DNA of 49,103 bases from Oscillospiraceae bacterium (GTDB lineage Bacteria; Bacillota; Clostridia; Oscillospirales; Ruminococcaceae): assembly GCA_009786985.1 (NCBI GenBank), contig WRGW01000108.1, positions 1 through 49,103 of the forward strand. The letters are read 5' to 3'. The stretch's first letter is position 1; the number at the start of each line of letters is the position of its first letter. The notes beneath the pieces are model-generated. The model was given only the letters and a program-made list of their open reading frames with translations. It ran no database searches and was not told the origin of the DNA. Below, in pieces: positions 14,869 to 49,103 of the stretch. Position numbers and translations under genes: made by a program.

Positions 14869-15035
14869 TTAAGAGTCTGTTCAATATCTCGCTCATGGTG
14901 ATTTTATAACTAATTTTCCATCGTACTTCGTTAAAATTTTCCGCAAGGCACAAAGCATTACGCAAAATTTTGCCTTGTCTGACGAAAAATTCGTTTCATA
15001 AAATCACTCATTCGGAGATACCGAACAGGCTCTAA
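14869..15035. repeat. Foldback element A (between rplU and rpmA)
   Basis: A ~167-bp imperfect palindrome. The outer arms TTAAGAGTCTGTTC and GAACAGGCTCTAA are complementary and the match continues inward for ~38 bp with a few mismatches. The interior (CGTTAAAATTTTC, then AAAATTTTGCCTTGT and GACGAAAAATTC) is related to the cores of elements B, C and D, but the outer arms are not. Its right end overlaps the rplU stop codon. I see no reading frame in it. Confidence 0.75.
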
Positions 15036-17902: not shown

Positions 17903-18194
17903 GCAAAACAAGAGCTGGAGGGGCGGCTTTGCCGACCCCGAAGCTCGACGAAGCACAAAGCTCTTCAAGCGGACTGCTCAGTGGCAGAGCCACTGACACC
18001 TCCGCTCTCGCTTTGCAAAACAAGAGCTGGAGGGGCGGCTTTGCCGACCCCGAAGCTCGACGAAGCACAAAGCTCTTCAAGCGGACTGCTCAGCGGCAGA
18101 GCCACTGACACCTCCGCTCTCGCTTTGCAAAACAAGAGCTGGAGGGGCGGCTTTGCCGTCCCCGAAGCTCGACGAAGCACAAAGCTCTTCAAAA
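17903..18194. repeat. 112-bp tandem repeat, 2.6 copies
   Basis: Units begin at 17903, 18015 and 18127, each with GCAAAACAAGAGCTGGAGGG; period is exactly 112. Copies 1 and 2 are nearly identical and copy 3 stops at ~18194. Each full unit holds two strong palindromes, GGGGCGGCTTTGCCGACCCC and CAGTGGCAGAGCCACTG. The second is shared with the tandem repeat at 48946. It fills the 327-base gap between the MBOAT and DHHW genes. Short open frames run through it but are by-products of repetition. Confidence 0.9.
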
Positions 18195-32823: not shown

Positions 32824-32988
32824 TAAGGCAACACCGCACAATTCACAACGTACATTTCACTTGCACGTTTTTATCCAAATTTCGTTAATTTTTCGTTGAA
32901 TAACTGGGTTATTCGCCTCAAAATTGCCTTATTGGGCTAAAAAATTGACTGCGTGTTCTGCACGCTTGAATTGTGCGGTATTGCCTTA
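32824..32988. repeat. Foldback element B (between pilD and pilB)
   Basis: A ~165-bp palindrome whose ends are TAAGGCAACACCGCACAATTC and the complement of TAAGGCAATACCGCACAATTC (one change over 21 bases). The interior has CGTTAATTTTTCGTTGAATA, a GAATAAC/GTTATTC apex hairpin, ATTCGCCTCAAAATTGCCTT and CTAAAAAATTG, shared with D and, less well, with A and C. It takes most of the 263-base divergent gap. Confidence 0.8.
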
Positions 32989-38140: not shown

Positions 38141-38308
38141 TTAGAACCGACCTTCAATAACGCAAAATACCTGTATTTCGGCTAATTTTACGCCATTTAT
38201 CGTTAAATTTTTCTTAAATATGCACGGATATTCGCAAAAAAATTGCCTCAACTGGCATAAAATTCGCTCAAAATTCAAATATTCCGTTTAGTGAAGGTCG
38301 GTTCTTAA
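38141..38308. repeat. Foldback element C (between holB and ricT)
   Basis: A ~168-bp palindrome with ends TTAGAACCGACCTTCA and the complement TTAAGAACCGACCTTCA. The interior has CGGCTAATTTTACG, CGTTAAATTTTTCTTAAATA, an AATAT/ATATT apex, AAATTGCCT and GGCATAAAATTCGC, related to D. Its right end carries the TAA stop codon of holB and its left end lies 38 bases before ricT. Confidence 0.8.
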
Positions 38309-41204: not shown

Positions 41205-41235
41205 TAGACCTCACTTTAAATATTCTGTCATTTAT

Positions 41236-41398
41236 TAGACCACCTAGAAAACTAACGCACGGCGAATTTTCGGCTAATTTTCCCGCCTTACTACGTTAAT
41301 TTTTCGTTAAATATCCGCAAAGATTCGCCTCAAAATTGCCTTGTATGGCAAAAAATTAGCTTTCAAGTCCACTCGCAGTTAGTTTCCGAGGTGGTCTA
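41236..41398. repeat. Foldback element D (before the metallophosphoesterase)
   Basis: A ~163-bp palindrome; ends TTAGACCACCTAGAAAACTA and the complement TAGACCACCTCGGAAACTAA. The interior holds the clearest core: GGCTAATTTTCCCGCC pairing with GGCAAAAAATTAGC, and CGTTAATTTTTCGTTAAATA, ATTCGCCTCAAAATTGCCTT. It abuts the motif repeat at 41397-41422. Confidence 0.8.
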
Positions 41399-41500
41399 TT
41401 GAAAGTTCGGTTGTTATACCCCGACGCTCTGCATCGGTTTGCGCGTGCGAAGCGATGAGGGGCAGGGCTTGCCCAGTGGTGTTACCGAACATTTTTTACT
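41397..41500 (-). repeat. Mosaic palindromic repeat with shared motif (copy on minus strand)
   Basis: Reading on the minus strand, it begins ATGTTCGGTAACACC, holds GGGCA/TGCCC and GCGCG palindromes, and ends GGGGTATAACAACCGAACTT TCAATA, the motif found at 31048 and 44297. GTTCGG at one end and CCGAAC at the other can pair. It follows the 41513 gene and may be its terminator. Confidence 0.5.
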
Positions 41501-41512
41501 ATCAGTAATGAT

Positions 41513-42385
41513 TTATACTTCAGATGTTTCAGATGTTTCAGATGTTTCAGGCGTTTCAGATGTTTCAGGCGTTTCAGATGTTTCAGGCGTTTCAGGTGTT
41601 TCAGAGGCTTCTATAGCCTCGGGAGTTTCAAGTGTTTCTGAAACTTCTGGAGTTTTAGGGGATTCTTCTATTTTAGTTTTATTCGTAAAGTCAAGATTAT
41701 TAGATTTAGAAGGTTTTCCAGAGGCAAACACAGATTCAGACACTGGTGCATCATCAATATTAGCTACTAAACTTTGTACATCGATTTTTCCAGAACCTAA
41801 AATGCTCCCAACGTCGTTCATGCTACTGTATTCGTTAGACTTTTGTTCGAGAATGCTATCAAGGCTACGGATTGCATCGCAGTTATCGCCAATGTTATTG
41901 CTATCATTTGAAGAAGAATTGGATTCAGAAGGAACATGGAGTTCTGGTATTTCTCTCTCTGAATCTGGTTTGAAATATTCGTTAAACCAGTCAAGAGATT
42001 TTTTATAGTTTAAGCCCTCACCAGCGAACCGAATCCAGTAGCGGTCATCAGCTTTGATGCCATGAGTTCTTCTGATAATTTCGTAAGGATTATATTCATC
42101 GACACCAAATCTTTCAAGCTCCGCCTGAGTGAAAGGTGTTTTGTCAGGGAATACTCTGCTAGAGAGCAGGAAGTAAATGTCGTTAATGTCAAGCGGGCGT
42201 GCAGTGCTTGTAAGAATCACCTCACCCGTTTTTGTATTGAATTGATAATCAACCTGTTCGTTTTCATGTACTTTGTAAGAAGCAAGCAATGAGTTTCCGC
42301 ACATAAGTTCAAATTCAAGTGGTAACGGGATTTCAAAAGGCTCGTTATTAACCACGTTGTAAGTATAAGACTTGATAATTTTCAT
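41513..42385 (-). CDS. Unrecognised protein with a Glu/Thr/Ser-Pro repeat tail
   Basis: This 290-residue protein has no signal peptide or membrane segment. Residues ~1-145 look like a compact domain (FELMCGNSLLASYKVHEN, DYQFNTKTGEVILT, DINDIYFLLSSRVFPD, NPYEIIRRTHGIK, YWIRF). Residues ~146-255 are Ser/Asn/Asp-rich. The last ~35 are 9-base-type repeats coding for SETPET units, prone to slippage. I do not recognise the family. AGGGAG lies 11 bases before the ATG. Its leader carries the second copy of the three-hairpin element, which may tie its control to the pilus operon. Confidence 0.65.
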   Translation of the reverse strand: MKIIKSYTYNVVNNEPFEIPLPLEFELMCGNSLLASYKVHENEQVDYQFNTKTGEVILTSTARPLDINDIYFLLSSRVFPDKTPFTQAELERFGVDEYNPYEIIRRTHGIKADDRYWIRFAGEGLNYKKSLDWFNEYFKPDSEREIPELHVPSESNSSSNDSNNIGDNCDAIRSLDSILEQKSNEYSSMNDVGSILGSGKIDVQSLVANIDDAPVSESVFASGKPSKSNNLDFTNKTKIEESPKTPEVSETLETPEAIEASETPETPETSETPETSETPETSETSETSEV

Positions 42386-48945: not shown

Positions 48946-49103
48946 AAGACAAGAGTTGCGGTGTCAGTGGCTCTGCCACTGAGCAGGCAACTTGACGAGT
49001 CTCGCCGTCGAGATACCCCACTCCAAACGGGCAAAGCCCGTTTTGCGGGGGATACTCTTGTTTTGCTAAGACGAGAGTTGCGGTGTCAGTGGCTCTGCCA
49101 CTG
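48946..49103. repeat. 122-bp tandem repeat, cut by the window edge
   Basis: AAGACAAGAGTTGCGG at 48946 recurs as AAGACGAGAGTTGCGG at 49068, period 122; the second copy is cut at 49103. The unit holds GTGTCAGTGGCTCTGCCACTG and CGGGC-AAA-GCCCG. Its reverse complement starts AGCAAAACAAGAG and contains CAGTGGCAGAGCCACTGACACC, so it is the same family as the 112-bp repeat at 17903, in the other orientation. No gene is seen. Confidence 0.8.

Follow-up and report, generated by a model that had tools for sequence, protein, structure and literature searches.

The window analysed here, the whole 49,103-nt stretch of DNA from an Oscillospiraceae bacterium, contains four short foldback elements (A to D) that share a core and differ in their outer arms, which raises the question of what moves such elements and what keeps their arms paired. 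A first-pass annotation had described them as ~165 bp long, with related cores in the same orientation and with arms private to each element. All four are real; their ends were refined to 159-161 bp, and a covariance model of the core (R1) matched every one of them on the minus strand (Table 1). The TTA(A)G with which all were said to begin is present, but it belongs in part to the target duplication rather than to the element. Our analyses make it quite probable that the elements are modular, non-autonomous hairpins (MITEs), mobilised by insertion sequences (ISs), which swap their ends and are selected as a single strand.

Table 1. Positions of the four elements and of their flanking target sequences in the window.
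Feature	Position	Strand	Length	Ends	Core	Flanks	Flank positions
Element A	14873-15032	-	160 bp	GAG(C/T)CTGTTC...	14911-14991	TAA, target duplication	14870-14872 / 15033-15035
Element B	32827-32985	-	159 bp	GGCAA(C/T)ACCGCACAATTC	32865-32945	CTAA/TTAA, imperfect	
Element C	38144-38304	-	161 bp	GAACCGACCTTC	38183-38264	TTA, target duplication	38141-38143 / 38305-38307
Element D	41237-41397	-	161 bp	AGACCACCT...	41276-41357	ATT, target duplication	41234-41236 / 41398-41400

Folded with its flanks, each element forms one long hairpin, and in all four the minus strand is the more stable (-72.8, -69.3, -70.5 and -59.6 kcal/mol for A, B, C and D, against -55.7, -59.4, -45.1 and -51.5 kcal/mol for the opposite strand); the strand of better folding, minus in the window, is hereafter called sense. 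The elements are short and non-coding, their terminal inverted repeats pair, and target-site duplications flank A, C and D and are imperfect at B. None encodes a transposase, ~160 bp being too short for any transposase frame. Five loci searched against Rfam gave no match at the gathering score and, at E <= 1, nothing but three sub-threshold eukaryotic families. B is absent from the orthologous intergenic region of all four relatives aligned, which were chosen because match spacing implied a shorter region and which are too diverged for the exact empty site to be visible. A stretch of a same-genus genome (G003:C26:13332-13498) is 87% identical to element C.

Other repeats lie close by. One (ATACCCCGACGCTCTG...GGTGTTACC(G/A)AACA) adjoins D from 41418 onward and also stands beside two broken elements of the genome (L244 and L259, at C111:27816 and C103:37170). 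The open frame beside D (41513-42385) contains GAAACATCTGAA repeated on the minus strand in 9- and 18-base steps (41519-41584), and the window has at 17903-18160 repeated words (CAGAGCCACTGACACC and neighbours) with a 112-bp spacing, which recur at 48960-49103.

A BLAST search of the element's own genome (1.81 Mb in 112 contigs) with D returned more copies with the arms of D, and also other arm types around the shared core. Model R1 found 71 distinct sense-strand core matches in this 1.81-Mb genome at E < 1e-4 (71 of 96 rows, the remaining 25 being antisense, partial or weak), so that the elements cannot be ascribed to chance. The 51 of these copies that were scored fall into 17 arm classes, of which nine have two or more members and some consist of single or broken copies; a single recognisable arm is left in C80:5127, C103:37170 and C111:27816. 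Counted within this genome, the class of A has 4 members, that of B 6, that of C 3 and that of D 10. Their arms thus differ mutually but are common to other copies and are not private, and ordinary MITE subfamilies with shared terminal repeats, the outcome against which the first-pass annotation had set its reading, are largely what the 17 classes represent. Clustering of a wider set sorted 144 elements into 52 arm classes. In a side-by-side print, the outermost 16-20 bp vary by class and the inner arms are often alike.

Several copies depart from this plan. Three ~50-bp palindromes (L059 at C111:36673, L060 at C46:2251 and L063 at C79:9947) consist of TATAGTCG arms alone, from which it follows that the core is dispensable for the presence of such elements. 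Conversely, a core that inserts itself into palindromes was considered and dropped, as, by eye, no whole core was clearly without arms among the printed copies. A hairpin of ~36 bp (GCCCTATYAAGCAGGC-AAA-GCCTGCT...) is nested at varying places inside elements of the genome (C73:10936, C69:36, C110:49557, C72:3760, C72:8300, C19:2501, C104:40197 and several of the AGACC class), and another small, GC-rich hairpin sits within L089, L136, L127, L090 and L165. In L066, L068 and L012 an ATG follows within a few bases of a AGGAGGTCT-type end, which could be a putative ribosome-binding site.

Judged by sequence, the arms behave as the terminal repeats of different IS5-family ISs, and the elements are on this basis classed as MITEs. 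Target duplications are class-specific. Among GA(A/G) elements, preselected for TWA on both sides, 26 of 27 pairs of flanks are equal (TAA/TAA or TTA/TTA). The AGACC class has equal flanks over 3 bp in 13 of 18 rows (one of them a misassigned TATAGC element, L152), all AAT or ATT, against a mean of 6.4 when mispaired (0/2000). Under a class assignment in which some elements are misassigned, flanks of the GGCAAC class are equal over 4 bp in 5 of 10 cases against 0.6 when mispaired (0/500), and the TATAG and TATAC classes show no duplication beyond TA.

Matching IS ends were found in relatives. A complete 842-bp IS (L294, genome G033) has perfect 15-bp ends, GAACCTGTACCAATA, around one 268-aa IS5 transposase (NF033580); these ends agree at 13 of 15 nt with those of C78 in the window's genome and of G033:C74 in the IS's own genome. 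The IS lies between TAA and TTA, which do not form a direct repeat. The other two partners are one-ended pieces at contig ends. L289 (G008) carries AGACCTCCTCGGAAACTAA, followed by two open frames, transposase fragments matching the IS5_4 model (NF033581), and its left end, AGACCTCCTCGGAAACT, shares an identical 17 nt with an element of the same genome (G008:C21). In L304 (G003), a weakly matching transposase C-terminus of 28 aa (E 4.4e-4) precedes the right end CTATGAATACAGCTTC and TTA; CTATGAATACAGCTTC is the class F end and the end of C109:34750 in the window's genome. Ends are therefore shared with an IS for the AGACC class (L289) and class F (L304), and are close for class N (L294); no IS partner was found for the GGCAAC, TATAG and TATAC classes. 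All partners found belong to the IS5 family, with two different IS5 transposase models; ISL2, IS427 and IS1031 are subgroup names, each with its usual duplications. R1 detected no core in L294, L289 or L304, and its single match in ten loci (L308) lies ~1.1 kb from that locus's transposase. Genomes G000, G003, G006 and G020 gave between 0 and 2 matches for each of the transposase families searched despite 61-106 R1 matches, the transposases being either lost or missing from the assembly; their near-absence where copies abound speaks against mobilisation by ISs.

Each MITE family is, to our knowledge, built on a single type of end. IS5-family MITEs are likewise short and gene-free, with IS5-type inverted ends and matching target duplications; the present core differs in having many end types, against one per ordinary MITE family. 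The combination of one core with many terminal-repeat types and differing duplications is unusual; the elements as such are MITEs.

Copies with unlike ends, recognised by eye, suggest exchange through the core. In the window's genome, C110:49557 has a TATAG left and an AGACC right end, C82:15237 a GAG left and a TATA right end, C60:6331 joins different arms through one core, and C70:28 does the same but is cut by a contig end; at L102:7098, a TATACCGC end lies outside a GAACC arm. These chimeras fit the landing of one element in another followed by core-core recombination, and single chimeric copies in metagenome-assembled genomes (MAGs) may be assembly errors. They bear on the alternative that ordinary MITE subfamilies arose from one IS5-derived ancestor, their ends diverging along with the ISs and their cores being alike by descent. 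The exclusively IS5-family partners, the subfamilies with fixed ends and the inner arms alike across many classes agree with such a history, but it accounts poorly for target duplications that vary between classes in sequence and length, for two different transposase models, for the chimeric copies, and for the survival of boxes and covarying helices in distant families as well as in other phyla; we consider it unlikely.

The core is a structured module of ~80-120 nt between the terminal repeats, in which the boxes AAGGCR and YAACGCAGTA, with variants, surround internal loops. We counted a 27-pair structure in an alignment of 34 diverse cores in sense orientation (A3). It is paired in 92.4% of 905 cells against 76.0% in shuffled alignments, and 21 of the 27 pairs have changes on both sides, against 12.4 when shuffled, a value reached in 0/500 shuffles; covariation is evident in the core helices. 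Structures slid along the alignment pair at 34-54%, a control that favours the counted structure because the latter was taken from the consensus of the same sequences. Of the invariant runs, the two longest (AGGC and AACG) lie inside internal loops, and the pair closing them is G-C in 19 of 34 rows, A-U in 15 and broken in none. Box variants occur as AAGGA and TGACG in several copies of G008 and G033, and in other forms in distant copies. The boxes seem to be kept largely by sequence, presumably through recognition by a widespread bacterial factor. Searches of phages and plasmids with the core consensus and of viral contigs with one strict pattern gave no matches. Integron attC sites, compared by their generally known features, were dropped as a candidate, the arms here being IS ends.

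Folding of whole elements is polar. The sense strand folds better in all 14 similarity clusters of 151 elements (137 of 162 tabulated plus 14 others, those cut by contig ends or with a core longer than 95 being left out), the preference being weakest in the Correia element of Neisseria (CREE, -1.0 kcal/mol) and in an element of Cupriavidus (-3.3 kcal/mol). After removal of the core, the arms still favour sense in 51 of 52 classes (144 of the 151 elements, boxes being unlocated in seven; sign test p 2e-14), classes that are not fully independent since inner arms are alike in many of them. Ten classes take their names from loci beyond the genus, namely eight in Bacillota (three within a single genome), a Flavobacterium locus and Cupriavidus; all ten favour sense. 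So do all 30 elements that were read, out of 32 matches, in G008 and G033. Substitutions were counted in the 15 classes that have at least four copies, the consensus being taken as ancestor, so that counts share ancestry. At Watson-Crick paired sites, C>T exceeds G>A (81 against 37, p 6e-5; larger in 13 of 15 classes, with two ties) and A>G exceeds T>C (58 against 32, p 0.008; larger in 11 of 15 classes and smaller in four). Both excesses preserve G.U on the sense strand, a pattern that speaks for single-strand selection and not for copying from arm to arm; the reversal of the A>G excess in four classes counts against reading the polarity as selection.

The polarity might instead be a mutational footprint of C deamination on an exposed strand, with no part for selection. 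C>T does exceed G>A in the 13 classes mentioned, but C deamination does not yield the accompanying excess at A-T pairs, where A>G outnumbers T>C, and we hold this explanation to be improbable. Pairing could also be kept without selection if one arm were copied onto the other by template switching at quasi-palindromes. Paired double changes occur in 13 of 15 classes, as between two intact class C copies (CCGACCTT/AAGGTCGG against CCTATCTT/AAGATAGG), and are what such copying would leave; C111:27816 was dropped as a third example, its second arm being another repeat. Arm-to-arm copying is strand-blind, yet nearly all arm classes favour the same strand and both substitution excesses are seen, and the mismatched boxes stay conserved, which makes it very improbable as the source of pairing. 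The annotation's view that pairing itself is kept is thus upheld beyond shared descent by core covariation, by the class C paired changes and by strand preference, and of the two causes it offered, arm-to-arm copying is disfavoured.

Selection on a single strand, the reading preferred here, probably acts on an RNA form. As G.T wobble favours single-stranded DNA too, polarity does not separate the two, and we lean towards RNA with modest confidence. Neighbouring genes bear on whom this would serve. In 60 of the 71 copies of the genome (11 lay at contig edges), scored against simple open frames of >= 70 aa rather than annotated genes, upstream frames share the copy's strand in 30 cases and oppose it in 30, and downstream frames do so in 34 and 26; between co-directional frames, 25 copies are sense and 21 antisense. 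Nearly all are intergenic, two of the 60 being flagged inside an open frame. A cis-acting RNA element that serves the host as terminator, 3'UTR stabiliser or antiterminator and spreads by selection at gene ends would suit the strong hairpins and the position between frames, but it is hardly probable given this lack of orientation bias. Because orientation to neighbouring genes is unbiased, any benefit would most likely fall to the element itself, in trans, and not to neighbouring mRNAs; we regard it as rather likely that the role is self-serving or exerted in trans, not in cis, and favour, from sequence evidence, a core that works as a self-serving RNA hairpin.

Among 40 same-genus genomes, R1 matched 22, the window's own among them, with as many as 106 matches. 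Across the phylum, with strict filters and a threshold of E <= 1e-5, it matched 7 of 398 genomes, again counting the window's own. The distant copies in the phylum retain the architecture as well as the boxes, the latter with variants, and in most of them helices and ends are unrelated; one from another family of the order (L322) has B-like ends (GGGTAACACCGCACAATTC), L323 and L325 have CTAG on both sides, and L328 has CTAG and CTAT. An exact-pattern scan of named genomes found at least 101 loci, and 57 of the 80 matches listed are titled Oscillospiraceae, the others listed being Eubacterium, Prolixibacteraceae, Chlorobiota, Flavobacterium rhamnosiphilum and unrelated chance hits. Some listed MAGs are same-genus genomes also used in the R1 search (e.g. 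G003, G006 and G027), and we take the listed MAGs, from their isolate names, to be of termite gut origin. Of the 98 loci (out of 101) searched with R1, the F. rhamnosiphilum isolate locus matched at 64.9 bits, as did, at scores of their own, Prolixibacteraceae and Chlorobiota loci, for both of which MAG contamination is possible. Dozens of end types flank the core across Bacillota, Bacteroidota and Chlorobiota.

Among known systems, the Correia element (CREE/NEMIS) is the closest. It is likewise a short intergenic hairpin MITE, described as 104-108 or 153-157 bp long (PMC9778887), as ending in one repeat of which there are four variants (PMC5039591), and as able to bind IHF and RNase III (PMC2649163). 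The Correia sequence used as query matches two gonococcal records at 99.1%. CREE has the common core boxes AAGGCR and YAACGCNGTA, as CAGGACAAGGCGA ... CAACGCTGTACT, with a spacing of 42 against 38-40 in the members scored alongside. Its box score, from a matrix trained without Correia, is 29.0 against 18.5 for the best of its own 300 shuffles (0/300 as good) and 24.1 for the best shuffle in any of eight sets. R1 matched the Correia locus weakly (E 0.043 in 3.8 kb) and, under strict filters, gave no match on whole gonococcal and Cupriavidus records. The 26-bp Correia ends, TATAGTGGATTAA..., are close to a TATAGTCG(A/T)TTAA class of the window's genome; A-D have no TATAGTGGATTAA-type 26-bp ends, the resemblance being confined to TATAGTCG classes elsewhere in the genome, and the inner helix and loop of Correia differ from those of the present elements. 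From these sequence likenesses, CREE is likely a member of the same superfamily. The element of Cupriavidus CH34 matches CREE at 85% over its inner 53 bp and R1 at E 0.0024 on a 3-kb locus, with a marginal box score (14/300 shuffles as good).

Other small repeats were weighed as relatives. ERIC/RU-1 of enterobacteria is likewise a stable stem loop with TA ends, of 127 bp (PMC2759123), but kinship is unsupported, its boxes being no better than shuffles (206 and 137 of 300 as good); RU-3, with a box score of 7.7 and 5/300 shuffles as good, is also unsupported. TIMEs, tied to a transposon (PMC4133298), and MITEAba12, with ends common to ISAba12 and 9-bp duplications (PMC6382973), are likewise non-autonomous and transposon- or IS-linked; MITEAba12 is linked to one IS, and the accessible portion of that paper describes no swapped ends around a structured core. 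The literature covered, which includes few subscription papers, yielded no account of swapped ends around a single MITE core, nor of relatives of Correia outside its own phylum.

Taken together, a module of ~80-120 nt would be framed by a pair of terminal inverted repeats of ~16-20 bp that belong to some IS. Copies bear the ends of different IS5-family ISs, as arm classes, class-specific duplications and IS ends in relatives indicate, so that different transposases would move the same module. Ends would probably be exchanged by nesting of elements and recombination through the shared core, and the helices, arms included, would be kept paired by selection on a single-stranded sense strand, most likely RNA, in which a conserved reader, some widespread bacterial factor, may recognise the boxes AAGGCR and YAACGCAGTA.

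A broader proposal, which we offer tentatively and with some doubt, is that of a cross-phylum superfamily of selfish hairpin modules including Correia, swapping terminal repeats between ISs and carrying an RNA read by a host factor that gives an advantage independent of transposases. The question raised is which host factor reads AAGGCR/YAACGCAGTA, and whether as RNA or as ssDNA. If the proposal is true, seemingly unrelated small repeats would be one lineage with a defined motif, the long-studied Correia element would be linked to repeats in other phyla, and a non-autonomous element would outlive any single transposase by exchanging its ends.
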